Under the pieces are notes generated by a model that worked only from the letters and a program-made list of their open reading frames with translations, was not told the origin of the DNA and searched no databases. A DNA stretch of 64,000 nucleotides from Dissulfuribacter thermophilus (GTDB lineage: Bacteria > Desulfobacterota > Dissulfuribacteria > Dissulfuribacterales > Dissulfuribacteraceae). The position numbers and the translations under genes are program-made. The stretch spans positions 124,001 to 188,000 of the forward strand of contig NZ_MAGO01000001.1 in NCBI RefSeq assembly GCF_001687335.1, written 5' to 3'. Position 1 is the first letter of the stretch. The number at the start of each line of letters is the position of its first letter. Below are positions 531 through 34,939 of the stretch, one piece after another.

Positions 531-2339
<1,809 letters not shown>

Positions 2340-2340
2340 A

Positions 2341-2425: not shown

Positions 2426-2443
2426 AAAAATACAGATACCCAC

Positions 2444-2495
2444 GGTGTCGTGTATTGGTAACTCTTTTATCCCAAATTATGCATGGCAAAAGGAG
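2444..2495. repeat. Fragments of dispersed intergenic repeats
   Basis: GGTGTCGTGTA at 2444-2454 matches the arms of the inverted repeat near 8391-8406. ATCCCAAATTATGCATGGCA followed by AAAGGAG (2469-2495) matches, on the opposite strand, the segment at 53236-53270, and resembles the left end of the 260-bp elements at 48492 and 54469. No coding potential. Confidence 0.5.
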
Positions 2496-2528
2496 TTAAA
2501 AATTTTTTTCTATTCACTTAATTTGGAT

Positions 2529-3170: not shown

Positions 3171-4327
3171 AATAGTTTATCAATCTTATTTTGAAATTTA
3201 AATCCTGAAAGACAAACATTTGAATTAATCCCTTTTGCCTGAATAAAAAATTTGTGTGAATCCCCCATCCCCTGAGGTAATAAAAGCATTTTTATACCGG
3301 CAAGAGCTGGAGAAAAAGGATCCAACCCCTTGGGATAAAGAGTTTCTATAACCTTTTCTATCCCCAATGAAGCTAGAAAACTCCATTGATTACAAAAACC
3401 AATAGGTTGAAGATTTAATTCAGATCCCCACTCTAACATATCAGTAAAATTAACATGATGAGTAATATCACGTTCCCCAGGATTTGAATACAAATCATCA
3501 CTTAAAGTGTGCTGATAAAAAGCCCTGAGCGTCCCTCTTTTTCTTAAAGGACTGTAGTAGTCTCTCCTAGAAAAACCATAATCAATGGTAAATAAAAAGC
3601 CTTTTTTAAGGACATTTGCCACCTCAGATAGCCAGTCCTTTAAGATTAAATTAATTTCTGTACGATATCCCAAATCAACATTACCTAAATATTGATGAAT
3701 ATAGGACTGAAGCCTTTCATCAGAAAGGCTACCATAGGTTTCTGTAAGATGTTTTCTATCTTCATGAGATATATATACTTCGAAAAAACCCTCTTCCCTC
3801 TTTTCAATCATATGAACTGGAAAGGCATCGATAAGTTCATTTGAGACAATACAACCATTGATAGACCCAATTTCCTCTAGACTATTAAACCAGGTACATG
3901 GAAATTCTTTTAATAAATCCCTTTGAACCGCCTCCAAAGACCCTATTGGTTCCACAATAAAAACTTTTAAATGAGAATAAAAGTCAGGTAAATTGGTCCT
4001 AATATAGTTGAGAATGTCATGCATAAAAAGGCCAGACCCAGCACCTATTTCACATAGGTTAAACTCATCTTTTCCTAAAAGATTCCACATTTCATAAAGT
4101 TGAAGGGCGATAACGCCTCCAAAGACAGGACTGGCATGAGGAGATGTAACAAAATCGCCGGACCTACCAATAGGAACATGCCCTCTGGCATAATAACCAT
4201 GATGAGGATAATAAAGGGCCATTTCCATAAATTCGGCAAAGGTAATTGGTCCAGAATTGTCGATTTTTTCAAAAATAATCTGCTCTAATTTTATGGAATT
4301 CCCCTTAATGTTGTGGTACATATTCAT
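3167..4327 (-). CDS. SAM-dependent methyltransferase, MidA/NDUFAF7 family
   Basis: A 386-residue protein of the COG1565/DUF185 family. It has the family N-terminus (GPITFAEFMEMALYYPHHGYY, here residues about 25-45), the GDFVTSP block, and the SAM-binding loop CEIGAGSGLFMHDIL. A later IVSNELIDAFPVH block is also diagnostic. The mitochondrial homologue NDUFAF7 dimethylates an arginine of a complex I subunit; the bacterial substrate is unknown to me. It is the first gene of a two-gene unit with the HAD phosphatase (4-nt overlap). The 209-bp AT-rich gap to the divergent dnaN probably holds promoters for both directions. Confidence 0.88.
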   Translation of the reverse strand: MNMYHNIKGNSIKLEQIIFEKIDNSGPITFAEFMEMALYYPHHGYYARGHVPIGRSGDFVTSPHASPVFGGVIALQLYEMWNLLGKDEFNLCEIGAGSGLFMHDILNYIRTNLPDFYSHLKVFIVEPIGSLEAVQRDLLKEFPCTWFNSLEEIGSINGCIVSNELIDAFPVHMIEKREEGFFEVYISHEDRKHLTETYGSLSDERLQSYIHQYLGNVDLGYRTEINLILKDWLSEVANVLKKGFLFTIDYGFSRRDYYSPLRKRGTLRAFYQHTLSDDLYSNPGERDITHHVNFTDMLEWGSELNLQPIGFCNQWSFLASLGIEKVIETLYPKGLDPFSPALAGIKMLLLPQGMGDSHKFFIQAKGINSNVCLSGFKFQNKIDKLL

Positions 4328-4536
4328 TTGTTGTTTATAACCTGTTTAAACCGATTTTGAAAGACTGTCAAAAAAATGTTGAAAAATGTTAAAGTTAATT
4401 TTACAAAAAAACTATACAATTTTTTTCAACAAACTTTAGAAAAAATTAAATAATAATTTCAGTTAGTTACGATTAATTAACAAAATAACCAACCCTTATT
4501 CTTACTTTTTTAATAAATTAAAGAAAAGAGGAAGAT

Positions 4537-5658
4537 ATGTTACGGGCAGTTGTAAAAAAAAGTCTAATTCTTGATCCACTTTCAAAGATTCAAACTGTCG
4601 TAGACAAAAAAACCACAATGCATCTCTTGAATAACGTGCTTATATATTCAGAAGGTGGAAAACTCTCCCTAGAAGCCACTGACCTTGAAATTAGTTACAA
4701 AGGGACTTTTGACGTTGAAATACAGGATGAAGGCGAATTAACTGTAAATGCTAGAAAACTATATGATATTATAAGGGAACTTCCTACTGAAGAATTTCTA
4801 CTGGAACAGCTACCTGACAATTGGCTACGAATAAATATTGGTGATAAGGGAGAGTATAAAATAGGAGGCCTACCAGTAGAAAATTTCCCTCGTTTTACAT
4901 TTTTAAATAATGGAAAAGGCTTTGAATTAGAACAATCACATTTAAAAAAGATGATATTGAAAACGGTCTTGGCTGTAGCTACTGATGAATCGAAATATGC
5001 CCTTACAGGGCTCCTAATCGAAAGTGATAGGGAAAATAAAGTTCTAAGAGCGGTAGGTTCAGATAGTCACCGGTTAAATCTTATGGAAGTTCCTATGCCT
5101 GAAGGTCTAGATTCTGACATCTCATTAATAATTCCTAGGAAAGGGGCCTTAGAAATAATAAAATTATTGGATAAAGAGTTGACAGTCAAAATTGAAACAG
5201 ATGAAAAGTTTCTTCACCTAGACTGCGGTAACGAGCATTTGAATATAAGATTGGTAGATGGATCCTATCCAGATTATAGGGCAATTCTCCCAGAGGAAAG
5301 GATAAGAAGCGTAATTTTTGATAGAGTAGAAATGATTAATATCTTAAAAAGAATTTCCATTGTTTCACCGGATCCTGAGGTAAAGGGCGTAAAAATGCTT
5401 TTTACACCAGGAGAGGTGCTTGTAGAATCAATGAGCAAAGAATCCAGTGATGCAAAAGAAAAAACAACAATAAATTACGATGGCGAGCCTTTTGTAACAG
5501 CATTGAATGCCCGTTATATGATAGAAACATTAAATGTTATGGATTCAACTGAGATAAAACTCACAATTAATGATGATGAATCCCCATGTATTTTAGAAGG
5601 TGATGAGGACAAAGGATTTTTAGCCTTAATAATGCCAATGACCCTGGAAGAAGAATAA
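4537..5658 (+). CDS. dnaN: DNA polymerase III beta sliding clamp
   Basis: A 373-residue protein, normal for a bacterial beta clamp, made of three similar ~120-residue domains. Recognisable blocks are the N-terminal LSKIQTVVDKKTTMHLLNNV, the mid-protein GSDSHRLN and the C-terminal LALIMPM, where the clamp ends as usual. The dimer encircles DNA and tethers polymerase III and other partners. GAGGAAG precedes the ATG. The order dnaN-gyrB on one strand is a classical near-origin arrangement, but neither dnaA nor recF is present and the upstream gap shows no clear DnaA boxes. Confidence 0.97.
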   Translation: MLRAVVKKSLILDPLSKIQTVVDKKTTMHLLNNVLIYSEGGKLSLEATDLEISYKGTFDVEIQDEGELTVNARKLYDIIRELPTEEFLLEQLPDNWLRINIGDKGEYKIGGLPVENFPRFTFLNNGKGFELEQSHLKKMILKTVLAVATDESKYALTGLLIESDRENKVLRAVGSDSHRLNLMEVPMPEGLDSDISLIIPRKGALEIIKLLDKELTVKIETDEKFLHLDCGNEHLNIRLVDGSYPDYRAILPEERIRSVIFDRVEMINILKRISIVSPDPEVKGVKMLFTPGEVLVESMSKESSDAKEKTTINYDGEPFVTALNARYMIETLNVMDSTEIKLTINDDESPCILEGDEDKGFLALIMPMTLEEE

Positions 5659-5828
5659 AACAATCCTCAGGGGAAAAAAAACAGCATTTCGCTAAACGCT
5701 TCCGAATAGAGGCTTAGGGACTAAGCAATAGATATTAGATAGGCATTCTCCCTGCATGTTAAATACCTAATAGCAAAATAGACGGGGTATTTTCCAAACA
5801 CTAGAATAAAAAAGAGGAGTGGAGTTAA

Positions 5829-8231
5829 ATGACCCAAAATAGTTCTGATTACGAGGCTAAACAATTAAAGGTATTAAGTGGCCTAACAGCAGTACGAAAA
5901 AGACCTGCAATGTATATAGGAAATACAGGAGAAGAAGGACTTCATCATTTAGTATATGAAGTGGTTGATAATAGTATAGATGAAGCCCTAGCAGGCTATT
6001 GCACAAAAATACTCATAACAATACATGAAGATAATTCAATTACAATTGAAGACAACGGGAGAGGTATTCCTGTAGACATTCATCCAACTGAAAAAATACC
6101 AGGTCTTGAACTTGTAATGACCAGACTCCATGCAGGGGGAAAATTTGATCATCAGACATACAAGGTTTCAGGAGGACTTCACGGAGTTGGTGTTTCAGTG
6201 GTCAATGCCCTATCACTATGGCTGAAGGCAGAAGTTTACAGAGATGGTTACATATGGACACAGTCGTATAAAAGAGGTGAACCAGAAGGTCCGCTACAAC
6301 AACTAGGCCGAACAAAAAAAACTGGAACAAAAATAACTTTTAAACCCGATCCAGAGATTTTCCAAGAGACTACAATATTCAAATACCCAATATTACAAGC
6401 ACGTATGCGCGAACTCGCCTATCTTAATCCTGCAGTAAAAATCATTCTACATGACGAAAGAAGTGGGGAGAAAAACGAATTTCACTACAAGGGTGGAATA
6501 TCAAGTTTTGTAGAATATTTGAATCGAAACAAGGACTTGGTAAATGAAAAACCAATCTATATCGAAGGTGCTAAAGATAATGTCGAAGTAGAGGTGGCAT
6601 TTCAATACAATCGCGGCTACCAGGAAAAGGTCCTCAGCTATGTAAATAATATTAGGACAAAGGAAGGCGGAACTCATGTAGCTGGTTTCAGAATAGCATT
6701 GACAAAATGTCTTAATAAATATGCAAGTGACGACGTGGTACCCAAAAAATTACGGGAAAAGATGGAAGGAGAAGACGTTCGAGAGGGCCTAACCTGTGTA
6801 ATATCGGTTAGAGTGCCAAATCCTCAGTTTGAAGGGCAAACAAAGACCAAATTGGGTAATAGTGAGGTAAGATCAATAGTAGCTTCAATAGTAAGCGAAG
6901 GACTTACCACATATCTTGAGGAAAATCCATCTGTTGCAAAAAAGATCCTTCAAAAAGCAGTTGAAGCAGCTAGGGCACGGGAGGCTGCAAGGAGAGCAAA
7001 GGAACTGGCTAGGAAAAAGGGTTCTGGAAATGAACTGTTAATGGCTGGAAAATTAGCCGAATGTCAGGAGAAAGACCCAGAAAAAAGAGAAATATTTATT
7101 GTAGAGGGAGATTCAGCTGGAGGTAGTGCAAAACAGGGAAGAGATAGACGTTTTCAAGCAATACTACCCTTACGCGGAAAGATAATGAACGTCGAAAAGG
7201 CCAGATTCGATAAAATGCTTGCAAGTGAAGAGATAAAACAGCTGATAGCAGCGCTAGGTACGGGAATAGGACCAGAAGATTTTGATCCTGATAAGGTCAG
7301 ATATCATAAAATCATTATTATGACAGATGCTGACGTTGACGGAGCTCATATTAGGACCTTACTTCTAACCTTTTTCTACAGACAGATGATTGATTTAATA
7401 GATAGAGGATATATTTATGTTGCTCAGCCCCCACTTTATAGAGTTTCAACAGGCAAAAAAAATGAACGTTTTTTAAAGGATGATGATGAATTAGATTCCT
7501 TTTTGTTTGAAAGGGTGACCAAAGATTTAAAAATCCGTATTCAAGGTTTTGATAAAACCTTTGAGGGAAATGAAGTAAAAAAATTATTTAATAAATTATC
7601 TAATTATGAAAAAGCCGTAACCGAACTCTGTAAAAAAGGCTTATGGAAAGAAGTAATTCAGGATATTTTTGAATTGAATATTTCCTCACAAGATCAATTT
7701 GATGACTATGAATATACCGTAAATTTAACAAAGAAGTTCAAAGATAAAGGATATATAGTAGGACCAATAAATCCATCATCAGGAGAACATGGAGGATATG
7801 AATTCAATATAGCAAAAAGAGATTTAGCGTATTTAAATACTACGATTGGTCCAGAATTATTGGTATTACCTGAATTTCATAGAGCAATAAAAGCATATCA
7901 AAAAATATCTGATTTTTTTGGAAAAGAATTCTTTGTGATATCCGGCAATGAAGAAAAGAAATTTGAAGAAATTGAAGTTATGCTGGATTACATAAGAAAT
8001 CTTGGAAGACGAGGCCTAAATATTCAAAGATATAAAGGTCTTGGAGAAATGAATCCAGATCAACTCTGGGAAACCACCATGAATCCAGAAAAGAGAAGAC
8101 TCTTAAGGGTAACAATAAGTGATGCAAATGAAGCAGAAAATTTATTTACAACTCTAATGGGAGATAAGGTTGAACCAAGAAAAGAATTTATACAGCAACA
8201 TGCTCTAGAAGTAGAGGAGCTGGATATATAG
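5829..8231 (+). CDS. gyrB: DNA gyrase subunit B
   Basis: An 800-residue type IIA topoisomerase ATPase subunit. The GHKL ATPase domain shows [12 protein letters not shown], the glycine-rich DNGRGIPV and [14 protein letters not shown]. The Toprim domain shows [28 protein letters not shown] and the Mg-binding DADVDGAHI. The C-terminus has [18 protein letters not shown], the conserved gyrase tail. With GyrA (not in the window) it introduces negative supercoils. Length is typical, and no intein or insertion is seen. GAGGAGTGGAGTTAA precedes the ATG. The 170-bp gap after dnaN suggests it may have its own promoter. Confidence 0.97.
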
Positions 8232-8288
8232 TAGTAACTAGCAAAAGGAGGCAAAAAGGATTTTTCTTTTTCATATCAGGTCATTGCC

Positions 8289-8406
8289 CATACTACACGA
8301 CACCAGGATAATATGCTTTAATCATTCTTCCTTCTACTGTTTTACAGGAAAACAACGACTGAATCACTATATCATAAATTGGCAGAATGTGGTGTCGTGT
8401 AGTATG
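8289..8406. repeat. Element with perfect 16-bp inverted repeats after gyrB
   Basis: Arms 8289-8304 (CATACTACACGACACC) and 8391-8406 (GGTGTCGTGTAGTATG) are exact reverse complements separated by 86 bp without a gene. Just upstream (8236-8255), GCAAAAGGAGGCAAAAA matches the interior of the 260-bp elements at 48492 and 54469. The right arm and its flank (AATGTGGTGTCGTGTAGTAT) recur in inverted form near 50248-50266. It looks like a small non-autonomous element or a two-way terminator between convergent gyrB and birA. Confidence 0.65.
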
Positions 8407-8409
8407 TGT

Positions 8410-9189
8410 TTATACGAATTTTACATCACCATCAACTATTTCAATTACATTTCCATTATCAGCTTTTATCAATAAAAATCCCTTACGAGAAAGACCAACT
8501 ATATCACCCGATATTGCTGAGTCATTACATGTAACAATGACTTTTTTTCCAATTGAGGAAGAAAGGCTTTCCCATTTTGAATATATATATGATGATCCCT
8601 TGACAATATAATCAGAAATTTGTCGATCTAAATGATCAAGAATTAATGACAATAGATACATTTTATCTACATTATTAATACCTTCTCTTTCAAGAGTAGT
8701 GATTTTTTCTTGAAGATCATTAGGGTAGTCCTCTAGCGTACCCCTAATATTTAACCCAATACCCACAACTATCGTTGTTAGCCTTTTCTCTGATTTTGCT
8801 TCAACAAGAATTCCAGCTACTTTTCTGCCTTTAATTAAAATGTCATTAGGCCATTTAATGGACACACATGGGACACCAATTTCAGTTAATGCATGATGTA
8901 AAGATATACCTGCAATAAGAGGAATTGTGGAAATGATTGGAGAAGCAGTGTTGTCATGAATAGTGCAAGAAAAATAAAGGTTTCCAGGAATATGTGAAAT
9001 CCAGTTTCGAGCCTTTCTACCACGGCCTTTGGTCTGGATGTCTGCTAGGATGACTAGTCCATCCTTTTTTAAGAGTTCTGGATCATTTAATGCAAGAGAA
9101 TTAGTTGATTCGACTTTATTTAAATGTAAAAGCCAGCGTCCAACATGGACCCTGGCTTTATTAAAGGGGATTATTTTTATTTGGTTCAT
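8410..9189 (-). CDS. birA: Biotin--[biotin carboxyl-carrier protein] ligase
   Basis: A 259-residue biotin protein ligase. The catalytic domain shows the biotinyl-AMP loop (TKGRGRKARNW), the signature SIKWPNDILI, and KVAGILVEAKS. A small SH3-like C-terminal domain follows. It lacks the N-terminal winged-helix repressor domain of E. coli BirA, so it should be a pure ligase without operator-binding function. It activates biotin to biotinyl-5'-AMP and transfers it to the lysine of EAMKMEN in the adjacent carboxylase subunit. It sits 6 nt after that gene on the same strand, which pairs enzyme and substrate in one transcript. Confidence 0.93.
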   Translation of the reverse strand: MNQIKIIPFNKARVHVGRWLLHLNKVESTNSLALNDPELLKKDGLVILADIQTKGRGRKARNWISHIPGNLYFSCTIHDNTASPIISTIPLIAGISLHHALTEIGVPCVSIKWPNDILIKGRKVAGILVEAKSEKRLTTIVVGIGLNIRGTLEDYPNDLQEKITTLEREGINNVDKMYLLSLILDHLDRQISDYIVKGSSYIYSKWESLSSSIGKKVIVTCNDSAISGDIVGLSRKGFLLIKADNGNVIEIVDGDVKFV

Positions 9190-9195
9190 ATTTCT

Positions 9196-11244
9196 TTAAA
9201 TTGGCTGTAAGACAAAGAGCAGCTGTTTCTCCACCACTGATTCATTTAATTTAACGCATATTTCTTTTACTTGAGCATCAAAAGGCGCTGTTATTGCATT
9301 TTCCATCTTCATAGCTTCGAGATTTGCAATCTCTTCTCCTTTGTGTACTATGTCTCCTACCTTTATCTGGCCACGTTTTGGATTTCCAATTCTCCAAACA
9401 TTTCCATTAATTGGAGCACCAATTTCATTTGGAGCCTTGGCCATCCTAATCTCTTTCTTTTTGGCCCTAGGGGTCTTTACAGTGTAAACCCTGGTCTTGT
9501 TATTTACCTTCATTACCACGTGAATCTCACCTTCGTGTTCAGCACCAACAGAGACAAGTTCAATACAGTAGGGTTTACCCATCAGTTCAAACTCTACCTT
9601 ATCACCAGGACGCCTGAGACCATTTCTCCAAACATCGGTAGGAAGTACCAGAGGAGCGTCTCCATATTCTTCTACGAACTCGAAGAGTCCAAGGGCATCC
9701 TTTGGATGCATCAAATAAAGGATAAATTCCTCTTCAGTAGGTGTTCTGCCCAATTGTTCAGCAAGATTTTTTCGTATAGTTTCAAGATCGTCTGGTTCTA
9801 ATGAATCCAGTGGAGATAGCTCTTTTCTCTCCTTAATTTTTTCTTCCCATTCATCACCAAATGCACTTTTATAAACCCATTCATCAGGCCACCCCATGGG
9901 AAGCTTACCATATCCACCTAGGAGCAAGTTTTTGAAATCCCCAGGGGCGTTCTTAAATAGACCAAGGAGTTCATTTTGCTCTTCCTCAGTCATGGCATCA
10001 AAGTCTTGATTCTTTTCTTCTACAAATTTAGTGAGAAGCTCTATGACGTGCTCAACCCCAGCCTCACCCTGTTCCTTTGCATATCTGTTAACAATACCAG
10101 AACAGGTGACCCATGTTATTTGAGATCCTGGAGTAACGTCAAAATACCGTACTATCCTGTTATAAAGGCTCATGACCTTCAAAATAGCAGGCATGAGGTG
10201 TAGGAAACCACCTTTTTCAGCCTGTTCAAAAGAACTTGGAAAAGCGCCTCCTGGCATCTTATGAAAGGTAACATTGTGATCAAATCCCTTGAAAGGAGAT
10301 TCTGCCCAGTCATATTGGCCTATCCATTCCCTTACCTTTTGAACTGCTGCTTCTGCCGCCTCCCTGTTTAAATGAACCTTTATACCTGATTCCTCGAAAT
10401 ACGCCTGTACAGCAAGGATTGGTGGTTGTCCGTAAAAACGGGTAAGAGAATCTTCTTCTGCATCAACTATTTTTGCTCCAGCCTGTGCTGCAGCGAGCAG
10501 AGCTGGAAGCGCGAGGCCATCTGTGGCATGTCTGTGGTATTGGATGACCATATCTGGATATGCATCAAGGATGGCGGAAACAAGACTCCTTATGCGTTCA
10601 GGACTTCCAACACCAGCCATGTCTTTTATACACAGAACTATTTCATCAGTACCACCACAAAGATCTACTATCTCTCGTACACATCCTAGATAATATTCAT
10701 TGGAGGTCCAATCTGCCTGGGTAAATGAGATGGCCGGTTGGAATAGCCGACCTCTCTTCATAACAACCTCTGCAACGGACCTCATGTTTCTAATATCATT
10801 CAAGAAGGAAAAGCAACGCCAGACGTCTATATCAACATTTGCCACAACGTATTCTATGACGTTTTTTGGATAGGGTCTGTATCCCCAAAGATTGGTCTCT
10901 CTAATTAGGGTCTGTAGCAAGACGCTGGGCATCTTTTCCCTGAATATTCTGAGTTCCTCAAAGGGGCTCTCTTTCCTGTTCATAACCCCTACGTGCCACC
11001 TTGCTCCACCGTGGCATTCTGCACTAAAGAGATTCATCTCTTCATAAAACGGAGCAAGTGTTGCTAGGTCAAATATTCGATGACGATTTTTATAGTCTGA
11101 TTGACCAGCATCTCTCATTCCCGTAGAGGTTATCATAACCCCGTCTAGGGACCTCAATGTATTGACTATCTCCCTTGGGGTCATCCCCGGCCTAACATAA
11201 TTCTTTTTTGTGGTGTTGTTTTGTTTCTTCATGGCTACATCCAA
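9196..11244 (-). CDS. pycB: Pyruvate carboxylase subunit B (carboxyltransferase plus biotin carrier)
   Basis: A 682-residue protein. Residues about 30-330 form the carboxyltransferase TIM barrel: the metal aspartate in TGMRDAGQSD, the lysine to be carbamylated in CIKDMAGVGSP, and the metal histidines in QYHRHATDG. A PYC/OADA conserved domain follows. The last ~75 residues are a biotinyl domain with the biotinylated lysine in LEAMKMENAITAPF. With subunit A it forms oxaloacetate from pyruvate and bicarbonate. The usual RDAHQS is RDAGQS here. The ATG at 11244 overlaps the subunit A stop region by 10 nt; an ATG at 11232 is also possible. Oxaloacetate decarboxylase alpha is the main alternative, but no membrane subunit is nearby and a biotin carboxylase is adjacent. 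Confidence 0.88.
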   Translation of the reverse strand: MDVAMKKQNNTTKKNYVRPGMTPREIVNTLRSLDGVMITSTGMRDAGQSDYKNRHRIFDLATLAPFYEEMNLFSAECHGGARWHVGVMNRKESPFEELRIFREKMPSVLLQTLIRETNLWGYRPYPKNVIEYVVANVDIDVWRCFSFLNDIRNMRSVAEVVMKRGRLFQPAISFTQADWTSNEYYLGCVREIVDLCGGTDEIVLCIKDMAGVGSPERIRSLVSAILDAYPDMVIQYHRHATDGLALPALLAAAQAGAKIVDAEEDSLTRFYGQPPILAVQAYFEESGIKVHLNREAAEAAVQKVREWIGQYDWAESPFKGFDHNVTFHKMPGGAFPSSFEQAEKGGFLHLMPAILKVMSLYNRIVRYFDVTPGSQITWVTCSGIVNRYAKEQGEAGVEHVIELLTKFVEEKNQDFDAMTEEEQNELLGLFKNAPGDFKNLLLGGYGKLPMGWPDEWVYKSAFGDEWEEKIKERKELSPLDSLEPDDLETIRKNLAEQLGRTPTEEEFILYLMHPKDALGLFEFVEEYGDAPLVLPTDVWRNGLRRPGDKVEFELMGKPYCIELVSVGAEHEGEIHVVMKVNNKTRVYTVKTPRAKKKEIRMAKAPNEIGAPINGNVWRIGNPKRGQIKVGDIVHKGEEIANLEAMKMENAITAPFDAQVKEICVKLNESVVEKQLLFVLQPI

Positions 11245-25132: not shown

Positions 25133-26329
25133 TCATAGATAAACTTCAAAAAGAAGTTCCTGGAAACTGAGAAATTTTAAGTTGATATTTGTGTCTATTA
25201 TAATCTCCCTTAATTGTTCAGCACACTGATGGCAATAGGTAGTTAATATTCCTGTCTCTTTTAATTTTAAAAGTTGTTTTCTTTTGAGTAAGGTCAACTG
25301 CCTTCTATCCTCTAGTCCTAAAAGTCCAGCTCCTGCCCCTCCACCACAGCAGATGCAGTTAGGTGGTGCTGGTTCCAGAGTTTTGACTGAAAAACCATAG
25401 GCAGAGAGTATATTTCGTACTGATTTGTAAATCTCTGAGTCAGGTTCTACATTACAAGGATCATTTACTATCACCAATGGATAAGAGTCCATGGCCTGCT
25501 TTTGGTTGTTTTTTTTAGGAGGTGAAAGGCGCCCTTTTTTTAAATAACGCCAAATGAGTACAGGGGTAGATAAAATTTCAATATCTGGGAATTGGATCTT
25601 TGTAGGCAAAGGGCCAAAGCCTGCCTTTAAAAAGGCATGTTCGCATGAATCCATCAATATTATTCTAGACCCTAGGTTTCTACATGTCTGGATTTTTTGT
25701 AAGGAAATGTTTTTTTGGGCATCAATATTACCAGCCATGGCTGCAAAATTTGATTCTTCAAATCCATAGCTTGGGATAGTCCAGTCTGCCTTGGCCATAT
25801 TGAGGAGAAATGATAGGGCAAGGATCGTCTTAGGATTGAACTTTAAATCTCTTGAACTAACAAAGACTAGGATCTCTGCTCCGGTCTTATCTATAGGAAT
25901 AGAGAAATCTGGCCTATTTGAAATACGTCTAAGTTCTTGTTCTAGCCACTGGAGTGTTTTTATTACCTCGAATGGTGTAAGAGAGAGCACATTTCCAGTA
26001 GTTAAGGTGCGGACATAAAATTCTTTTAAAATTTTTGGTGCAAAGGATTCACCTTGGCATTGTCGCAGGTAGTAAATTATGCCTGGTATATCGATATCAA
26101 CTGGGCAGTGTCGTCTACACCTGCCACAAAGGGAGCATCTCCAAATCCAGGTAGTATTTAATGCCTCTTCATCAAGCCCTAATAATATCAGCCTCAAAAG
26201 TCGTTCTGGATCCATATTCTGAATGCCTGATGCATGACAAACAGATGCACAAGATCCACAGTGAAGACAAGAAAGGAGGTTATTGCCGCATACTTTTAAG
26301 ATCCTGTCTCTCAAAACATAATTCTTCAA
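25133..26329 (-). CDS. HdrC-HdrB type iron-sulfur protein (CCG domain)
   Basis: A 398-residue cytoplasmic protein. Residues about 18-35 and 63-75 form two 4Fe-4S motifs (CLHCGSCASVC and CSLCGRCRRHCP) as in HdrC. The rest is HdrB-like with two CCG-type units: the second is complete (DPCNVEP, NCICCGGGAGAG, TYCHQCAEQL), while the first has lost nearly all cysteines (ESNFAAMAG where ESCCGG is usual, and DSCEHAF). There is no membrane segment, so it is not a QmoC of the classical HdrC-HdrE kind. It lies 11 nt after the giant HdrA/Qmo-type gene and is its likely partner for thiol/disulfide or quinone-linked electron transfer. The substrate is unknown. Confidence 0.82.
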   Translation of the reverse strand: MKNYVLRDRILKVCGNNLLSCLHCGSCASVCHASGIQNMDPERLLRLILLGLDEEALNTTWIWRCSLCGRCRRHCPVDIDIPGIIYYLRQCQGESFAPKILKEFYVRTLTTGNVLSLTPFEVIKTLQWLEQELRRISNRPDFSIPIDKTGAEILVFVSSRDLKFNPKTILALSFLLNMAKADWTIPSYGFEESNFAAMAGNIDAQKNISLQKIQTCRNLGSRIILMDSCEHAFLKAGFGPLPTKIQFPDIEILSTPVLIWRYLKKGRLSPPKKNNQKQAMDSYPLVIVNDPCNVEPDSEIYKSVRNILSAYGFSVKTLEPAPPNCICCGGGAGAGLLGLEDRRQLTLLKRKQLLKLKETGILTTYCHQCAEQLREIIIDTNINLKFLSFQELLFEVYL

Positions 26330-26340
26330 ATTATTTGCTC

Positions 26341-29300
26341 CTAGTTTAGGTGGTCATTTATTTCTTTTCTTGTATAGATGAGAAAAACATTTTCTTCTGG
26401 TATGAGTTTAACCTCGAATCCTTTATCTAGGTGTTTCTTGAGAGACCGTTGAGCACTCTTTGATGATCTGTATCTATGTCCATCCCAATAATATAAGACT
26501 CCATCAAAGCACCTGGTCATTGGTGGATATCTTCTTTCATCTTTCAAGTTATTGGCAGTAGGGGGCTGGAATGTTGTTATCGTATGAGTATTAGGGCCTA
26601 GGTCCTTAATTTTTTCAACGAACTCTGTCACTATATTGACAAATCTCTCTGCTTGCCCGGATGAACACCAATCAAGGAGATATCTCTCTGGAGAGATTCC
26701 ATATTCTTCCAGTATTAACTCGATGGTCTCTTTTCTTTCTAGGGCCACTAAATTTCCCTTGTGGTAATGACATTCCCCTGGATGACATCCAAGGACTATG
26801 ACCCCGTCTATACCCCTAGACAGAGCATACACTATTATATTTGGGTTTACTGTACCGGTACACATCACTCTAATAAAACGCACATTTGCTGGGTATTCTA
26901 TCTTGTGGGCCCCTGCCAAATCAGCGCTGGCGTAGGCACACCAATGGCATAAAAAACCCAGGATATAGGGTTCAAAATCGCCATTGTTGCGTTCTTTTAT
27001 TATAGCGTCTATTTGTGAGAGAATTGTTGAGGGCTCAAACCCCGATACCTCTATTCCTTCTTTTGGACAGGTTGCCACACAGATACCACAACCTGTGCAA
27101 TTGGCTTCCTCTATTTCAATAGTTCTTTTGACTTCTTTCTTGAATATATATTCAATGATCTTGATAGCCCTGAATGGACATGGGTCAACACATAGGCCAC
27201 AGCCATCACATTTGTCCTTAATGACTCGGGCAATAGGTGTGTCAAGTAGGAGAGTATCCTTTGATAGGATTGAGGCTGTTGCACGTGAAACAACTGCTGA
27301 ACATTGGCTAAATGTCTCATCGAGTTCCTTTGGAAACTGTGCCAACCCTGTAATAAATATCCCTTTTTGAATGGTCTCTACAGGCCTTAGTTTCAAGTGG
27401 GCCTCTTTAAAAAATCCCTCTTCATCCAGAGGTATTCCAAGGATATCGGAAAGTTCCTTATTGTCTCTTAAGTCAGGAACTATGGCAGATGCGAGTATAA
27501 CCAGATCAGGATAGAGTTTGAGAATTTGATTGGTATATGGATCCTGATAGGAGAGTTTCAGCTTAGTAGAGACCTGACCTGTTTCATCCATAGCCAAAAT
27601 CTTTTTAACTATAGGCTTGTGGTCAGTAGAAAATGGGATCATATGGACCCCTTTTTTCTTTGCCTCCAAGAAAAATTTTTCTCGAAGTCCATAGGTCCTC
27701 ATCTGCCTGTAAAAAATGAAAATATCAAGGGCAGGGTTTATTTCTTTTAATAAAAGGGCCGTCATGATGGTGTGAGTACAACAGACTCTGCTACAATAAG
27801 GCCTGTTTTCCTCTCTGGATCCCACACATTGAATAAAAGCGATCTCTTTAGCCTTTGAAATTATTTTTGTGGCATCTTCTTTGGAATTGAGTATCCTATC
27901 CAGTTCAAGATGTGTCAAAATTCGTTTGGAGTCTCCATAGAGATATTCGTCTGGTCTAAATTCTTTTGCTCCTGTTGCTACAACTGTAACGCCGTGGTTT
28001 ATGACGATAGTGCCCTTTTCTTTTGTCTCTATTTTTGAGGTGAAAGATCCTGCTCTCCCTGTATGAGTCAGTAATTTTGCCTCGGTCAAGACTGTGATTT
28101 TGGGATGGTTCTGCACGCGTTCTGTTAAGTCTTTAAGCAATTGTTTAAAAAATGTTCCCCGCCATGTTTTGTGCACAAAGCGGGCATTTCCCCCCAATTC
28201 CTTTTCTTTTTCTAAAAGGGTTACAGGAAAGCCCAGGCGTGCGAAGTCAATTGCACACTTCATCCCACTGATCCCACCCCCGATAATCAAAACCTCCTTT
28301 ATAACTGGATATTGTTTTGGGGCTATAGGCTTTAGTTTTCGTACACGCTCGATTTCGATTCGAATTTGATCCTTGGCCTTTTCCTCTGCAAGGATTGGTT
28401 GGGATTTATGTACCCAGGCATTATGATTTCGGATATTTGCCATGGAAATTGCCCACGGCCCAAGTCCTAATGGCTTTATTGCCTCTTGAAAGGTGGCTTC
28501 GTGAGTGTGGGGGCTACAAGCGGCAACAACAATTCGGTTGAGTCCTTTATTTTTTATTTGTTCTTTGATGATCGAAAGTGCGTCTTTGCTGCATGCAAAC
28601 TCTACAATTTCACAGTGCTCAACTCCATCCAAGAGTAGACTTGCCTGCTTTAAAGATTCTACTGGCAAATGATCGCTGATGTTTCCCCCACATTTACAAA
28701 TAAAAACTCCAATTTTAGCAGGAGATTTCTGGGAACAATTTAAAGTGGACGGATGTTCATATTTTGAATTGTCACTTTTATGTGACATGTTTATTATTAC
28801 GGCCCCAGCAGCTGCGCTACCTTCTATAACCGAGTGAGGTATTGATTTGGGAGAAGTAGAAGAGCCGCATGCATAGATACCCCCTATTGGGGTTTTGAAG
28901 GTCTCCTCGCCTTTTGTGGCAATAAATCCAAAATCATCATATAGTTTTTGGGGTTGTTCGAGAAACTGTTTTAAGGTCTGAGATGGTGATCTTCCAGTTG
29001 CTAAGACTACGAGATCATAAGTCCTGGACTCTACTGTGCCGCCAATTCGTCTGGCCCTTAGTTCTATTTTGTCTCCTGGAGCCCAATCTAGACTACATAT
29101 CCTGCTTCTAATGAAGTTGACCCCTAGGGCCTTTGCCTTTTGATAATATATCTCACTACCCTTTTGATGGGCACGGAGGTCAAGAAAATAAATATCTGTA
29201 ACAATTTTATGACAAACCTCTTTTGTGTTTAAGGCCTCTTTGACAGAAGACATGCAGCATGTATCTGAACAAAAAGGTCGAGTTAAAGGTGCGATCATCC

Positions 29301-30057
29301 TTGAACCAACACATTGAATCCAGGCAACTGATTGGGGTTCTTTTCTGTCTGAAGGACGTAGCACCTTTCCTCCAGTTGGGCCAGTGGCCTTAAGCATCAA
29401 TTCCATTTCGAGGTTAGTGATTACGTTTGGAAGGGTTTTGTATCCTAGAGCCTTGAGTGGTGTAGGGTCAAAAAGACCTGCGCCAGTTGCTATAACTAAA
29501 GCCTGGGCCTTTATCCTGGTTCCGACCTTGGTTTCTTCGAGGTTTATGGCTTTTGTGGGGCAAATAGCTTCACATTTTTTGCAAGATCCATAAAGGAAGT
29601 AAAGACAGGCCTTGGGATTTAAGACAAAACTGTTTGGTATGGCCTGGGGAAATGGTATTGAGATGGCCTTTTTCCTAAGTGTATGTGTAGCGCCTTGTGG
29701 TGTCACAAAAACAGGACATACATCTTCACAACGTCCGCATGATATACATTTTTTTTCATCCACAAAGCGAGGATTTAAGGTTACAGCTATGGTGAACTCC
29801 CCTTCTTCTGCATGAATGCCATTAATTTCTGCCCGAGTCAGGATTTCCACGTTGGGTCTTTGGGATAGATCAACAAGCTTAGGGGCAAGGGTGCACATTG
29901 AGCAGTCATTTGTTGGAAAGGTCTTGTCAAGTAGGGCAGATATGCCACCTAAGGCATCACCAGATTCAACAATTATGACATTTAGGCCTGCCTCCGACAG
30001 GTCCAGAGCGCATTGAATGCCTGCAATGCCACCTCCTATTATGCAAATCTTACTCAT
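26341..30057 (-). CDS. Fused double HdrA (QmoA-QmoB-like) flavoprotein with MvhD domain
   Basis: A 1238-residue flavin/iron-sulfur protein. Residues 1-430: HdrA/QmoA-like unit with FAD loop IIGGGIAG (6-13), 4Fe-4S ligands C104/107/110/114 and C151/159/162/166, and AWIQCVGSR. Residues 448-930: a second, complete HdrA unit with ICKCGGNISD, FAD loop 590-598, FIQCVGSREENRPYCS. Residues 950-997: two ferredoxin motifs (CDGCGLCVDPCP, CTGCGICVATCP). Residues 1032-1150: MvhD-like domain (FLCHWCAYASADLAG, LGCHPGECHY, DWCSSGQA). About 60 C-terminal residues are unassigned. QmoA and QmoB are separate genes in sulfate reducers; here their layouts appear fused. It probably links H2- or ferredoxin-level electrons to the HdrCB protein; flavin bifurcation is inference. 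Confidence 0.88.
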   Translation of the reverse strand: MSKICIIGGGIAGIQCALDLSEAGLNVIIVESGDALGGISALLDKTFPTNDCSMCTLAPKLVDLSQRPNVEILTRAEINGIHAEEGEFTIAVTLNPRFVDEKKCISCGRCEDVCPVFVTPQGATHTLRKKAISIPFPQAIPNSFVLNPKACLYFLYGSCKKCEAICPTKAINLEETKVGTRIKAQALVIATGAGLFDPTPLKALGYKTLPNVITNLEMELMLKATGPTGGKVLRPSDRKEPQSVAWIQCVGSRMIAPLTRPFCSDTCCMSSVKEALNTKEVCHKIVTDIYFLDLRAHQKGSEIYYQKAKALGVNFIRSRICSLDWAPGDKIELRARRIGGTVESRTYDLVVLATGRSPSQTLKQFLEQPQKLYDDFGFIATKGEETFKTPIGGIYACGSSTSPKSIPHSVIEGSAAAGAVIINMSHKSDNSKYEHPSTLNCSQKSPAKIGVFICKCGGNISDHLPVESLKQASLLLDGVEHCEIVEFACSKDALSIIKEQIKNKGLNRIVVAACSPHTHEATFQEAIKPLGLGPWAISMANIRNHNAWVHKSQPILAEEKAKDQIRIEIERVRKLKPIAPKQYPVIKEVLIIGGGISGMKCAIDFARLGFPVTLLEKEKELGGNARFVHKTWRGTFFKQLLKDLTERVQNHPKITVLTEAKLLTHTGRAGSFTSKIETKEKGTIVINHGVTVVATGAKEFRPDEYLYGDSKRILTHLELDRILNSKEDATKIISKAKEIAFIQCVGSREENRPYCSRVCCTHTIMTALLLKEINPALDIFIFYRQMRTYGLREKFFLEAKKKGVHMIPFSTDHKPIVKKILAMDETGQVSTKLKLSYQDPYTNQILKLYPDLVILASAIVPDLRDNKELSDILGIPLDEEGFFKEAHLKLRPVETIQKGIFITGLAQFPKELDETFSQCSAVVSRATASILSKDTLLLDTPIARVIKDKCDGCGLCVDPCPFRAIKIIEYIFKKEVKRTIEIEEANCTGCGICVATCPKEGIEVSGFEPSTILSQIDAIIKERNNGDFEPYILGFLCHWCAYASADLAGAHKIEYPANVRFIRVMCTGTVNPNIIVYALSRGIDGVIVLGCHPGECHYHKGNLVALERKETIELILEEYGISPERYLLDWCSSGQAERFVNIVTEFVEKIKDLGPNTHTITTFQPPTANNLKDERRYPPMTRCFDGVLYYWDGHRYRSSKSAQRSLKKHLDKGFEVKLIPEENVFLIYTRKEINDHLN

Positions 30058-30272: not shown

Positions 30273-31268
30273 TCATTTCTTTTTTCTAAATTGATCAAGG
30301 TCTATCTCATATTGTTGAATTTTCAAGTAAAGATTTTGGCGTCTAAGGCCTGAGAGGTTTGCGGCCATAGATACATTGCCATTTACCCGCCTCAATAGCC
30401 CTTCTAAATATTTCTTTTCAAATTCTCTTTTTGCATTTTTGAGTGGTTTATCAAATAAGGGTAAATGAAACTGCATGGAATCTTCATTTTGGTTATCAAT
30501 TTCTTGGTTTATTTCAAGGAGTTGTGGAGGTAAAGATGCAGGTGTAATAAGTGAAGATTGTTCTACGATTACTGCCCGTTCAACAACATGAATTAATTCT
30601 CTCACATTGCCGGGCCAGTGATATTGCATAAAGATTTTTTTTACTTCCTTTGATAGGCCCGTTAGTTTTTTTTTGTATTTTTGGTTGAAAAAATGCAGAA
30701 AATGCTCTGCTATCAACATACAGTCGTCATCTCTGTCCCTTAGTGGAGGCATCTTTATTTCCACAACATTAAGCCTAAAAAAAAGGTCTTGCCTAAATGT
30801 GCCAAGAGATACTCCTTTTCTGAGGTCTTTATTGGTGGCTGCAACTATTCTAACGTCAACTTTAGTGGGACGGGTCGAACCAATCTTGCAAAATTCTTCT
30901 TCTTGAAGTACGTGGAGAAGGGCTGTCTGGAAGGCCATTGAGCTATCACCTATTTCATCGAGTAAGAGTGTCCCCTTGTGTGCTTCTTCAAAGAAACCTT
31001 TTGAACGTGTAGATGCCCCGGTGAATGCGCCTTTTTCATGTCCGAAAAGGGCACTTTCTATAAGGGTATCCGGAATTGCACCGCATTGTACAGTAACAAA
31101 GGGTTTGTCCTTTCGTGGACTTAGTTGATGAATAATCCTTGCGGCAAGACCCTTTCCAGTACCTGTTTCTCCGCTAATTAATACTTGGACTCCTAGGGGT
31201 GCAACTCTAGATATTAGGCGTAATACCTCTCTGATTTTCGGCGACTTCCCAATTAGTTTAATGTCCAT
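30273..31268 (-). CDS. Sigma54-dependent activator without sensor domain
   Basis: A 331-residue enhancer-binding protein. The AAA+ domain begins at once (MDIKLIGKSPKIREVL) and has Walker A GETGTGKG, the sigma54-contacting loop KGAFTGA, Walker B LLLDEIG and NVRELIHVVERAVI. A Fis-type helix-turn-helix ends the protein (NGNVSMAANLSGLRRQNLYL, about 293-315). No receiver, PAS or GAF domain precedes the AAA+ domain, as in PspF, so activity must be set by expression or by a partner protein. It is divergent from the hydrogenase operon, whose upstream region holds a -24/-12 sigma54 promoter, and lies 215 bp upstream of the HdrA-type gene on the same strand. It is the obvious candidate regulator of both. 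Confidence 0.93.
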   Translation of the reverse strand: MDIKLIGKSPKIREVLRLISRVAPLGVQVLISGETGTGKGLAARIIHQLSPRKDKPFVTVQCGAIPDTLIESALFGHEKGAFTGASTRSKGFFEEAHKGTLLLDEIGDSSMAFQTALLHVLQEEEFCKIGSTRPTKVDVRIVAATNKDLRKGVSLGTFRQDLFFRLNVVEIKMPPLRDRDDDCMLIAEHFLHFFNQKYKKKLTGLSKEVKKIFMQYHWPGNVRELIHVVERAVIVEQSSLITPASLPPQLLEINQEIDNQNEDSMQFHLPLFDKPLKNAKREFEKKYLEGLLRRVNGNVSMAANLSGLRRQNLYLKIQQYEIDLDQFRKKK

Positions 31269-31346: not shown

Positions 31347-31362
31347 TGGAATGTATTTTGCA
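31347..31362 (+). promoter_or_regulatory. Sigma54 (-24/-12) promoter of the hydrogenase operon
   Basis: TGGAATGTATTTTGCA matches TGGCAC-N5-TTGCA with exact spacing; the invariant GG and GC are both present. Transcription would start near 31373, about 68 nt before the small-subunit ATG. A sigma54 activator gene lies immediately on the opposite side of the same 172-bp gap. Upstream activator sites were not identified. Confidence 0.75.
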
Positions 31363-31440: not shown

Positions 31441-32523
31441 ATGTCTCGAACTTTTTGGGATTTTGATACAAAGGTGAACAGGCGTAGTTTTTTGAAAGGA
31501 TGCGCCATGGTCTGTGCGGCAATGGGGCTTTCGGATGAGCTAGTTCCCAAAATGGCCGAGGCTGCTTCGAAAAAGAAACGTCCTCCAACGGTGTGGCTTC
31601 ATTTCCAGGAGTGCACTGGATGTACAGAGAGTCTATTGAGGGCATCACATCCAGATGTGGCACGACTCATCCTCGATCTCATCTCAGTAGATTATCACGA
31701 GACCCTCTTAGCTGCAGCAGGAACCCAGGCAGAAGAGCTGTTGACCTCTACGATTGAGGAGAACAAGGGAAAATTTATTTGTATAGTGGAAGGTGGAATT
31801 CCCACTAAAGATGGAGGCATATATTGTAAAATTGGAGGAAAAACAGCCCTTGAAATAATAAATGAAGTTGCTCCTAAGTCTGCTGCTGTTATTGCCATTG
31901 GTTCCTGTGCAGCATTTGGAGGCATTCAGGCTGCAAATCCAAATCCTACAGGAGCCAAAGGAGTTTCCGACATCATAAATTCTGTCCCTATAATAAATTG
32001 CCCGGGTTGTCCTCCCAATCCAATCGCCTTTTTGGGGACCGTACTACACTATCTCACATTTGGGCGACTGCCTGCAACGGATAAGCTCGGACGGCCACTA
32101 TTTGCATACGGACGCAGAATTCATGATCACTGTGAGAGGCGGCCCCACTTTGATGATGGAAGATTTGTCGAAGAATTTGGTGATTGTGCTCATAAGAATG
32201 GATACTGCCTCTATAAAGTCGGATGCAAAGGCCCAGAGACCTTTTCTCACTGCCCCTCTGTGAGATTTAATGATGTTGGAGTCTGGCCAGTATCTGTAGG
32301 TCATGGTTGTGTGGGATGCACAGAGCCAAATTTCTGGGACACCATGACTCCATTTTATGAAAGGTTGCCAGGTGTCCCAATTCCAGGGGATAGGGGCTCA
32401 ATATCAAGTTCTGAATCCTTTGGGAAAAAGGTGCTCGGGATTACAGGTGCTGCAGTGGCGTTGCATGCCTTAGCAGGCGTTGGAAAGAAGATGGTCCAGA
32501 AAAAGGACAATAAGGAAGAATAA
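31441..32523 (+). CDS. hyaA: [NiFe] hydrogenase small subunit (group 1, membrane-bound, Tat-exported)
   Basis: A 360-residue precursor. The Tat motif NRRSFLKG (13-20) precedes a hydrophobic stretch and a probable AEA cleavage site near residue 41. The proximal 4Fe-4S ligands begin in ECTGCTES (C58, C61) with GSCAAFGG and NCPGCPP. Distal and medial cluster ligands lie in DHCERRPHF, GCKGPETFSHCP and GHGCVGCTEPNFWD. A C-terminal hydrophobic segment (about 332-348) anchors it. It carries electrons from the NiFe site to the cytochrome b. The proximal site has the standard CTGC rather than the CTCC of oxygen-tolerant enzymes, so oxygen sensitivity is likely. AAAGGAGG precedes the ATG. First gene of the ten-gene operon. 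Confidence 0.95.
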   Translation: MSRTFWDFDTKVNRRSFLKGCAMVCAAMGLSDELVPKMAEAASKKKRPPTVWLHFQECTGCTESLLRASHPDVARLILDLISVDYHETLLAAAGTQAEELLTSTIEENKGKFICIVEGGIPTKDGGIYCKIGGKTALEIINEVAPKSAAVIAIGSCAAFGGIQAANPNPTGAKGVSDIINSVPIINCPGCPPNPIAFLGTVLHYLTFGRLPATDKLGRPLFAYGRRIHDHCERRPHFDDGRFVEEFGDCAHKNGYCLYKVGCKGPETFSHCPSVRFNDVGVWPVSVGHGCVGCTEPNFWDTMTPFYERLPGVPIPGDRGSISSSESFGKKVLGITGAAVALHALAGVGKKMVQKKDNKEE

Positions 32524-32549: not shown

Positions 32550-34253
32550 ATGGCAACACGAATAACAGTAGATCCCATTACAAGGATAGAGGGACATTTG
32601 AGAATAGATGCTGAGATAGAAAATGGAAAAATACAAAAGGCCTGGTCTTCAGGTTCGATGTGGCGTGGTATTGAAGTGATTTTAAAGGGGAGAGACCCAA
32701 GGGATGCCTGGATCTTTACCCAGAGAATCTGTGGCGTCTGCACAACAGTACACGCTATAGCATCGGTTAGGGCAGTGGAAAATGCCCTCAATTTGGAGAT
32801 ACCTATAAATGCCCAGTATATAAGAAATCTTGTCCTTGCAATTCATGCCCTTCACGATCACATAGTACATTTTTATATCCTTTCTGCCCTAGATTGGGTG
32901 GACGTGGTATCGGCCTTAAAGGCAGATCCTAAAAAGACTGCTACTCTTGCCCAGAGCTTGTCTGAGTGGCCTGGAAATAGCGTTAAACGATTCAAGGCAG
33001 TACAAGAAAAGGTCAAGGCATTGGTGGATAGCGGCCAGCTTGGGCCTTTTGCCAACGGCTATTGGGGCCATCCAGCAATGAAATTACCTCCTGAGGTAAA
33101 CTTAATGGCTGTTTCCCACTATCTTGAGGCACTTGATTATCAGAGAAAGGCAACTCAGGCACTGGGAATAATTGGAGGAAAAAATCCTCACATACAAAAT
33201 CTGTGTGTGGGAGGCGTTGCAACTGCAATAAATCCTGATAGCGATTCCGCCCTTAATATGGAGCGTCTTTATTGGATAAAGCAACTTGTGGATGAAGTAA
33301 GAGGGTTCATCATGAACGTCTACCTCCCAGATGTCTGTGCAGTTGGTGCCATGTATGCGGACTGGTTGAGCTTCGGTAGTGGTGTGGTCAATTATCTTGC
33401 CGTCCCAGACCTGCCTTTAGATACGAAGGGTGAGCAATTTGACTTACCTGGAGGCACTATTTTTGACGGCGATCTGTCAACTGTTAGGGAGATTAAGAGT
33501 TTTAATGATCCCTATTTTAGAGACAATATTTCAGAGTGTATAGCACATTCATGGTATGACGGTCACTGGACCAAACATCCGTTTGAAGAAGAGACAGTTC
33601 CTGAATACACTGACTTCCAAGATGATGGAAAATATTCCTGGGTAAAGGCCCCTCGCTTCAAGGGTAAACCAATGCAGGTAGGCCCTCTTGCCCAGGTACT
33701 TGTAGGCTATGCAACAGGGCATGAATTAACGAAAAAGTACGTAGATCATGCTCTTAAAACTATATCGTCTTTGGCCGGGACTAAGGTTTCGGTCCAAGCC
33801 CTTTACTCAACCCCTGGTAGACATGTAGCTCGTGCCGTGCGTGCTGCCATGTTAGCGGATCTCGCTCAAAAACACTGGGAACTCTTGGTCAACAATGTTT
33901 CAAGAGGTGATCTAGAGATATTTTCCAAACCTGAGTTTGGAAAAGGAAAACAAATGGGCTTTGGGTTCCATGAAGCCCCTCGCGGCACACTCTCTCATTG
34001 GATAGTGATAGAAGATGGAACAATTGCCAACTATCAGTGTGTAGTTCCTTCTACATGGAATGCAGGTCCAAGGGATGACAAAGGACAGCCAGGACCATAT
34101 GAAGCCTCTCTTGTTGGTAATCCAGTGGCTGATCCCCATAAACCCCTCGAACTACTGCGCACAATCCATTCATTTGACCCATGTCTTGCCTGCGCTATCC
34201 ACATTATAGACCCGGTTGGCAGAGAGTTATCGAGGGTTAAGGTAAATGTTTAA
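32550..34253 (+). CDS. hyaB: [NiFe] hydrogenase large subunit
   Basis: A 567-residue catalytic subunit. The nickel ligands are in the N-terminal RICGVCTTVHA (about 58-68) and the C-terminal DPCLACAIH (about 543-551). About 16 residues after that His (IIDPVGRELSRVKVNV) form the extension removed by the endopeptidase encoded at 39668. It has no signal of its own and should cross the membrane with the Tat-tagged small subunit. All four nickel ligands are Cys; no in-frame TGA is present, so it is not a [NiFeSe] enzyme. AGAGGAGG precedes the ATG, 26 bp after the small-subunit gene. Confidence 0.97.
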   Translation: MATRITVDPITRIEGHLRIDAEIENGKIQKAWSSGSMWRGIEVILKGRDPRDAWIFTQRICGVCTTVHAIASVRAVENALNLEIPINAQYIRNLVLAIHALHDHIVHFYILSALDWVDVVSALKADPKKTATLAQSLSEWPGNSVKRFKAVQEKVKALVDSGQLGPFANGYWGHPAMKLPPEVNLMAVSHYLEALDYQRKATQALGIIGGKNPHIQNLCVGGVATAINPDSDSALNMERLYWIKQLVDEVRGFIMNVYLPDVCAVGAMYADWLSFGSGVVNYLAVPDLPLDTKGEQFDLPGGTIFDGDLSTVREIKSFNDPYFRDNISECIAHSWYDGHWTKHPFEEETVPEYTDFQDDGKYSWVKAPRFKGKPMQVGPLAQVLVGYATGHELTKKYVDHALKTISSLAGTKVSVQALYSTPGRHVARAVRAAMLADLAQKHWELLVNNVSRGDLEIFSKPEFGKGKQMGFGFHEAPRGTLSHWIVIEDGTIANYQCVVPSTWNAGPRDDKGQPGPYEASLVGNPVADPHKPLELLRTIHSFDPCLACAIHIIDPVGRELSRVKVNV

Positions 34254-34291: not shown

Positions 34292-34939
34292 ATGGAATAC
34301 AAGATAGAAAAGGTATGGAGTCCTTTATTGAGACTCTATCACTGGACTTTTGCCCTATCTATCGTTGTCCTGGTTGTGACGGGGTTTTACATACATGACC
34401 CCTGGACCAATACCAGTTTGGAGGGGGTAGATAGCTTTCCTATGGCCTTTGCGAGGGAACTACATTTTTCTGCAGGATATGCTCTCTTGGCGGCCTTTAT
34501 TGCAAGGGTCTATCTCCTGTTTTTTGGGAATAAATATGAGAGGATATTATCATTTGCTCCTGTTACAGGCGCCAACATCAAGAACTTTTTTGGCACAATA
34601 GGCCATTATCTGTATTTTGGAAAAAAATGTCATAGGACGGGACATAACGTATTTGCAGGGACCTTTTACTTGTTGACCCTGTTTTTTGCTCTGGGACAAG
34701 TCCTTTCGGGTCTGTACTTGATGTATCCAGAGACCCTCTCTATTCAAGGTATGGGACTAGCCTTTTTTGGCAGCCAACAAGAGGCCAGATTCATACATAA
34801 CCTGCTCATGTGGTATTTCCTGTTCTTTGTGATGGCGCATGTCTATATCGTGATTTGGAATGATATCATGACACCAGAAGGCCTAATTTCCTCTATATTT
34901 AGCGGAAGAAAGTTTGTGGAAAAGAAAGATGGTGTATGA
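34292..34939 (+). CDS. hyaC: Ni/Fe-hydrogenase b-type cytochrome subunit
   Basis: A 215-residue integral membrane protein of the HyaC/CybH family. It has four hydrophobic segments (about 18-38, 55-75, 120-145 and 168-190). Candidate haem ligands are histidines in RLYHWTFA, ELHFSAGYALL, GHNVFAGTFY and AHVYIVIWND. It accepts electrons from the small subunit and passes them to the quinone pool, which makes this an uptake-type, membrane-linked hydrogenase. AAAGGAGG precedes the ATG. Confidence 0.92.
   Translation: MEYKIEKVWSPLLRLYHWTFALSIVVLVVTGFYIHDPWTNTSLEGVDSFPMAFARELHFSAGYALLAAFIARVYLLFFGNKYERILSFAPVTGANIKNFFGTIGHYLYFGKKCHRTGHNVFAGTFYLLTLFFALGQVLSGLYLMYPETLSIQGMGLAFFGSQQEARFIHNLLMWYFLFFVMAHVYIVIWNDIMTPEGLISSIFSGRKFVEKKDGV

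Follow-up and report, generated by a model that had tools for sequence, protein, structure and literature searches.

The question raised by one gene in a 64,000-nucleotide stretch of the Dissulfuribacter thermophilus genome (contig NZ_MAGO01000001.1, positions 124,001–188,000; "the window" below) is whether it encodes a QmoA and a QmoB joined in one chain, as a preliminary description of this DNA proposed, or another kind of HdrA flavoprotein – and what its connection is to the hydrogenase operon beside it. The open reading frame (ORF) lies at 26341–30057 on the minus strand, with exactly the boundaries given in that description, and is open throughout, encoding 1238 amino acids (aa). The protein, referred to here as HdrAA'-MvhD, is almost certainly a bacterial HdrA of the double type (type II), joined to MvhD.

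The N-half (residues 1–430; 28768–30057, minus strand) consists of an HdrA flavin adenine dinucleotide (FAD)/thioredoxin-reductase domain with an inserted ferredoxin (C104/107/110/114 and C151/159/162/166; 29560–29748, minus). Hidden Markov model (HMM) and structure matches place no N-terminal Fe-S domain in it; its cysteines include C52 and C55, the latter equivalent to Cys197. The C-half (residues 447–1022; 26992–28719, minus) has the HdrA N-terminal Fe-S domain, a second FAD domain that lacks both Cys197 and an inserted ferredoxin, and a C-terminal dicluster ferredoxin (C950–960 and C987–997; 27049–27231, minus). An MvhD/FlpD domain follows in frame (residues 1027–1157; 26587–26979, minus), with a PF02662 match over residues 1032–1154 (2.4e-48), and the protein ends in a tail (residues 1158–1238; 26344–26586, minus) with the conserved motif YYWDG...SAQ...FEAKLVP...LIYTRR. 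In an AlphaFold model (mean predicted local distance difference test score, pLDDT, 78.6; predicted template modelling score, pTM, 0.77), residues 1–427 match the FAD domain and inserted ferredoxin of Methanothermobacter marburgensis HdrA (VIA Z 47 to 8rvu_a 151–575), and residues 445–1022 match Methanothermococcus thermolithotrophicus HdrA from the N-terminal domain to the C-terminal ferredoxin (Z 42 to 5odc_A). The reading of this single ORF as a pair of HdrA-type FAD units with two ferredoxins and an MvhD domain is borne out by HMM, structure and cysteine motifs alike, and both ferredoxins are dicluster modules.

Their ancestry is another matter. A quick tree of FAD units was made, with long branches flagged, no archaeal A3 sequence among its rows and QmoB represented by one sequence. 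In it the N-half falls within a type II_N clade of 35 rows (Shimodaira–Hasegawa-like approximate likelihood ratio test, SH-aLRT, 100) and the C-half within a type II_C clade (SH-aLRT 98), and QmoA and the single QmoB fall outside the type II clades. Both halves have the same sister, L050, and therefore travelled together. A clade of the N-half with nine QmoA sequences was rejected by the approximately unbiased (AU) test (p-AU 0.008). The genome (2.52 Mb, 99.97% complete) has an intact aprBA-qmoA-qmoB-qmoC cluster on another contig, C7, where QmoC and AprA score over their curated cut-offs and qmoA and qmoB are separate genes; no QmoC or apr genes are found beside 26341–30057. The phylogeny and the separate aprBA-qmoABC cluster together exclude a one-chain QmoA-QmoB. 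The full genome also encodes DsrAB and DsrC, so the apr and dsr genes that the preliminary description had suggested looking for are present, the apr genes away from the gene in question. HdrA2 (NF040770) is not the right family either: the score is 993.1 of the 1100 bits required, and there are two FAD units instead of one. The features are those of type II A3+MVH – two thioredoxin-reductase/FAD units and a C-terminal MvhD in one chain, an N-half with Cys197 but without N- and C-terminal Fe-S domains, a C-half with the converse, and halves that group apart, one with type II_N and the other with type II_C. The archaea Borrarchaeum and Sifarchaeum (L013, L014) have a QmoA-like protein (~424 aa) and a QmoB/MvhD-like protein (~700 aa) encoded by separate genes, an unfused version with the same domain order.

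Fusions of two HdrAs are a described kind. In methane-metabolising archaea they have been named type II HdrA, among which class A3+MVH carries MvhD (PMC12054007); HdrA3/HdrA4 of anaerobic methanotrophic archaea are fused HdrAs with complementary Cys197 and N-terminal domain (PMC9012536); and 17 of 54 archaeal duplicated HdrAs have a C-terminal MvhD (PMC11237513). All of the 119 relatives searched had some match, and most of those listed had a double HdrA (query residues 3 to ~1020). Three further double HdrAs are encoded in the same genome, with MvhGA, MetF/AcsD and a GltD-FdhA fusion as their respective neighbours. The HdrA-HdrA' join (residues ~430–448), shared with these paralogs and with dozens of relatives, is therefore no sequencing error that merged two genes.

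The fusion to MvhD is less common. No other stop-free, full-span HdrAA'-MvhD was found among the matches listed from the 119 genomes; apparent full-length fusions in seven of them (G088, G065, G077, G102, G049, G036 and G081) all have a stop in the linker. In G002, the nearest ortholog (55% identical), the HdrAA' and MvhD ORFs are separate and overlap by 23 nucleotides (nt). Relative to G002, the junction has a net 10-nt deletion and the ATG of MvhD has become ATA, which makes a sequencing error at this join unlikely. Judged from these sequences, the MvhD fusion is lineage-specific and real, with MvhD encoded separately in relatives, and it is apparently independent of the archaeal fusions because G002 keeps a separate MvhD ORF. 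The design is thus novel only in part: the halves group with fused double HdrAs that are widespread and already described, and the fusion type is ordinary; what is new is the lineage-specific one-chain form within a conserved, hydrogenase-linked and sigma54-associated double-HdrA module. The tail of about 80 residues after MvhD has no Pfam match and holds a module of about 50 residues conserved on the MvhD of this subclade. Free-standing copies of the module, in proteins of 64–108 aa (L118–L124 and other hits), are spread over several families of the phylum; one of them, in G117, neighbours ATP synthase genes.

The two FAD sites of the protein differ. E219 and K273 of the N-half align with E356 and K409 of bifurcating HdrA, and the C-half has Asp at the first of these positions and Met (M766) at the second. 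The E/K pair is kept in every type II N-half read here; type II C-halves vary, and those associated with Met and Fdh keep both residues. The Cys197 equivalent is found only in the N-half and the HdrA N-terminal domain only in the C-half. In relatives that contain selenocysteine (Sec), this residue occupies precisely the Cys197 position and also occurs in MvhD; the 1238-aa protein has Cys at both sites. By its residues, only the N-half would be of the bifurcating type. Flavin bifurcation, raised in the preliminary description, is therefore permitted in the N-half, where it may occur, and argued against by the D/M pair in the C-half. The N-terminal HdrA of fused HdrA3/4 is said to have the N-terminal domain and to lack Cys197 (PMC9012536); the reverse order was found in all bacterial double HdrAs aligned here. 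Another account (PMC12054007) puts the A12-like half at the C-terminus.

The gene stands in a block that is itself conserved. The first gene of the Hdr block (30273–31268, minus) encodes a sigma54 activator with an AAA+ domain and a Fis-type helix-turn-helix but no sensor domain; it is followed by HdrAA', MvhD with the tail, and HdrCB. Divergent from these are the small subunit of a [NiFe]-hydrogenase, with a twin-arginine translocation (Tat) signal (31441–32523, plus strand), a hydrogenase-2-like large subunit (32550–34253, plus) and a b-type cytochrome subunit (34292–34939, plus; TIGR02125 over cut-off). This arrangement is kept in all five tail-subclade loci with full context (G033, G029, G043, G025 and the window); the remaining tail-type loci end at contig ends and are outside this count. 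Across the five, the hydrogenase is 66–80% identical and the activator 57–59%. None of the 19 other type II loci has the hydrogenase small subunit. A sigma54 -24/-12 promoter-like site, TGGAATGTATTTTGCA in the window (31347–31362, plus), faces the hydrogenase, and a site of this type (TGGAAYRY..TTGCA) is in the same place in 5/5 intergenic regions (Fisher p 1e-6 against random segments drawn from these loci, of which four are related). The link to H2 that had been suggested from the adjacent operon is strengthened by this cluster, conserved with its hydrogenase and shared promoter across two families. Direct contact between the hydrogenase and the Hdr proteins is ruled out by the Tat signal and the cytochrome b subunit. 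The order of hydrogenase and hyp genes is that reported for Dissulfurimicrobium (PMC8780430), and the gene content of the genome includes apr, qmo, dsr and acsD-type genes; together these would fit a member of the Dissulfuribacterales. In four relatives, but not in the window, a protein of 340–358 aa with a signal-like start (MSNPVYTVGGALNKTFVRP...) and no Pfam or NCBIfam match is encoded between the sigma54 promoter and the hydrogenase (L086:6644-7720, L087:10403-11446, L090:4634-5662, L091:13899-14921).

The partner gene (25133–26329, minus) starts 11 nt downstream of HdrAA'-MvhD and encodes a soluble HdrC-HdrB fusion of 398 aa, TmcB/HmcF/DsrK-like, which confirms that a protein of this type is found here instead of QmoC. 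It has two 4Fe-4S motifs (C21/24/27/31 and C65/68/71/75), one complete CCG site (C292, C327-C328-G, C366-x2-C369) and a lone conserved C229. Its scores are under the curated cut-offs for TmcB, HmcF and DsrK (138 of 735, 129 of 750 and 89 of 400 bits, respectively), placing it in none of these families, and it is also similar to the HdrCB of the Mvh-type paralog cluster. The DsrC encoded in the genome has both C-terminal cysteines.

These features suggest a mechanism in which the two HdrA halves of the single chain would pair with each other like the two protomers of HdrA in the HdrABC dimer of methanogens. Cys55 of the N-half would then complete the cluster in the N-terminal domain, which belongs to the C-half. 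The FAD of the N-half alone would be of the bifurcating type, and that of the C-half probably a plain relay. The co-regulated periplasmic hydrogenase would be the source (or the sink) of the electrons, which would travel by way of its cytochrome b and the quinone pool; HdrCB/DsrC would take the place of MetVF as acceptor. A chain of periplasmic hydrogenase, cytochrome b, quinone, MvhD, HdrA and HdrCB has been proposed for Sporomusa ovata from pull-down and membrane assays, and the membranes of that organism couple H2 to methylene-tetrahydrofolate (PMC9430772). The cluster in the window has no MetVF; the HdrCB site itself therefore probably serves a disulfide, and DsrC is probably the natural candidate substrate. 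The model as a whole – an intrachain HdrA pair, a bifurcating-type site in the N-half, H2 electrons reaching the Hdr complex by way of cytochrome b and quinone, and a disulfide acceptor – has about an even chance of being correct.

Several observations weigh against it. The cluster has no partner that would feed MvhD (MvhG, NuoF or Fdh); the hydrogenase is across the membrane from the Hdr proteins, so the connection is indirect; and menaquinol, being too oxidising, could drive MvhD only together with a second reductant. The other four complete loci all come from one family, so their independent support is modest, and AlphaFold confidence is below 50 at residues 44–57, the stretch that holds Cys55. 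Quinol alone being unable to reduce acceptors at the level of MvhD, either confurcation with another, low-potential donor or electron flow in reverse, from disulfide or ferredoxin to H2, has to be considered. A more specific version, in which the sigma54-linked block is an H2-to-disulfide chain of sulfur-metabolising bacteria that couples the periplasmic cytochrome b hydrogenase to soluble double-HdrA/MvhD/HdrCB, confurcates quinol-derived and low-potential electrons onto DsrC or runs in reverse, and uses the tail as a new docking element, is a tentative reading, more likely wrong than right.

The alternative that survives best, though an unlikely one, is that the complex serves the cytoplasmic MvhAG hydrogenase (C6) as a second Hdr partner; MvhAG would then dock on the fused MvhD while the periplasmic hydrogenase was merely co-regulated. 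MvhD is the usual docking subunit for MvhG, and within this genome the type II paralog closest to HdrAA'-MvhD has MvhG and MvhA next to it; but an MvhD and an HdrAA' are already part of the C6 cluster, and none of the loci read links the tail-bearing clade to MvhAG, its ties being to the periplasmic hydrogenase. Slightly less probable again is a non-bifurcating transmembrane route of the Tmc/Hmc type, with HdrCB on a membrane cytochrome b carrying H2 electrons to DsrC and HdrAA'-MvhD branching off towards ferredoxin. HdrCB has its best curated matches in TmcB and HmcF, which form the cytoplasmic ends of transmembrane complexes fed by periplasmic hydrogenases, yet the scores are far under the cut-offs, the cluster lacks a cytochrome c3 and any membrane subunit of Tmc or Hmc, and the likeness to HdrCB of the Mvh-type cluster points elsewhere. 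It is quite improbable that the Hdr complex is a redox sensor governing the activator and thereby expression of the hydrogenase. The activator's place at the head of the Hdr block, its lack of a sensor domain and the site facing the hydrogenase in all five loci would fit such a role; however, Hdr complexes of this size and cofactor content are known as catalysts in every case tested, and none is known to act in signalling. A one-chain QmoAB passing quinol electrons to AprAB has the right domain order and some identity to the genome's own QmoA (33%) and QmoB (28–32%), but is scarcely credible given the rejected QmoA clade, the type II placement of both halves and the separate aprBA-qmoABC.

Other Hdr loci of the genome have fusions or insertions of their own. 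On C6, the L018 cluster (G000:C6:34000-50000, ~3200–10240) encodes HdrB, HdrC, an HdrA of 587 aa, MvhD, TusA and a DsrE-like protein, together with a 716-aa HdrA that has a GltD/NfnB-like insertion in its ferredoxin region and is type III-like; nine type III sequences were found in a survey of methane-metabolising archaea (PMC12054007). On C4, a 1042-aa protein (L020:9605-12733) joins MetF (5–302) to the acetyl-CoA synthase corrinoid subunit AcsD (737–1042); it adjoins Sec-HdrAA', MvhD and HdrC and is 61–62% conserved in G029 and G021. The GltD-FdhA fusion on C11 (L021:3898-8016, 1372 aa) is beside a Sec-free HdrAA'-MvhD, and a copy 72% identical to it on C4 (L020:~600–4730) is open only with readthrough of an in-frame TGA, possibly Sec.

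Compared with known systems, HdrAA'-MvhD shares two thioredoxin-reductase/FAD units and complementary Cys197 and N-terminal domain with type II A3/A3+MVH (PMC12054007) and HdrA3/HdrA4 (PMC9012536), and a C-terminal MvhD with archaeal A3+MVH. It differs from archaeal type II in belonging to a bacterial clade, in a C-half without the bifurcation lysine, in the tail after MvhD, and in having an HdrC-HdrB fusion and a hydrogenase as neighbours rather than a molybdopterin oxidoreductase or FdhAB. The archaeal duplicated HdrA-MvhD proteins (PMC11237513) likewise have HdrA, HdrA' and MvhD in one polypeptide. HdrA2 of Methanosarcina acetivorans HdrA2B2C2 (PMC5296606) is also an HdrA-MvhD fusion, though with one FAD unit. 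QmoA and QmoB of sulfate reducers have the same domain order but are phylogenetically separate and encoded by two genes, and here coexist with the double HdrA in one genome, with apr and qmoC. Double HdrAs occur in abundance, with hardly any biochemistry on them to date; in this subclade the conserved gene order and promoter connect one with a periplasmic uptake hydrogenase. A fused protein with Cys where most relatives need selenocysteine makes a presumed link from periplasmic H2 oxidation to cytoplasmic disulfide or ferredoxin reduction testable. The closest functional likeness is to HdrCBA-MvhD-MetVF of S. ovata (PMC9430772), whose HdrA carries E/K at just one of its two FAD sites, interacts with MvhD, HdrB and MetF, and is functionally linked to a periplasmic cytochrome b hydrogenase; here the link is genetic. 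MetVF is absent from the cluster in the window, HdrC and HdrB are fused, and the N-half keeps its inserted ferredoxin, whereas S. ovata HdrA is predicted to have five [4Fe-4S] clusters in all. The hydrogenase-linked subclade thus provides independent genomic support for the chain proposed in S. ovata, from periplasmic H2 to a cytoplasmic HdrA.

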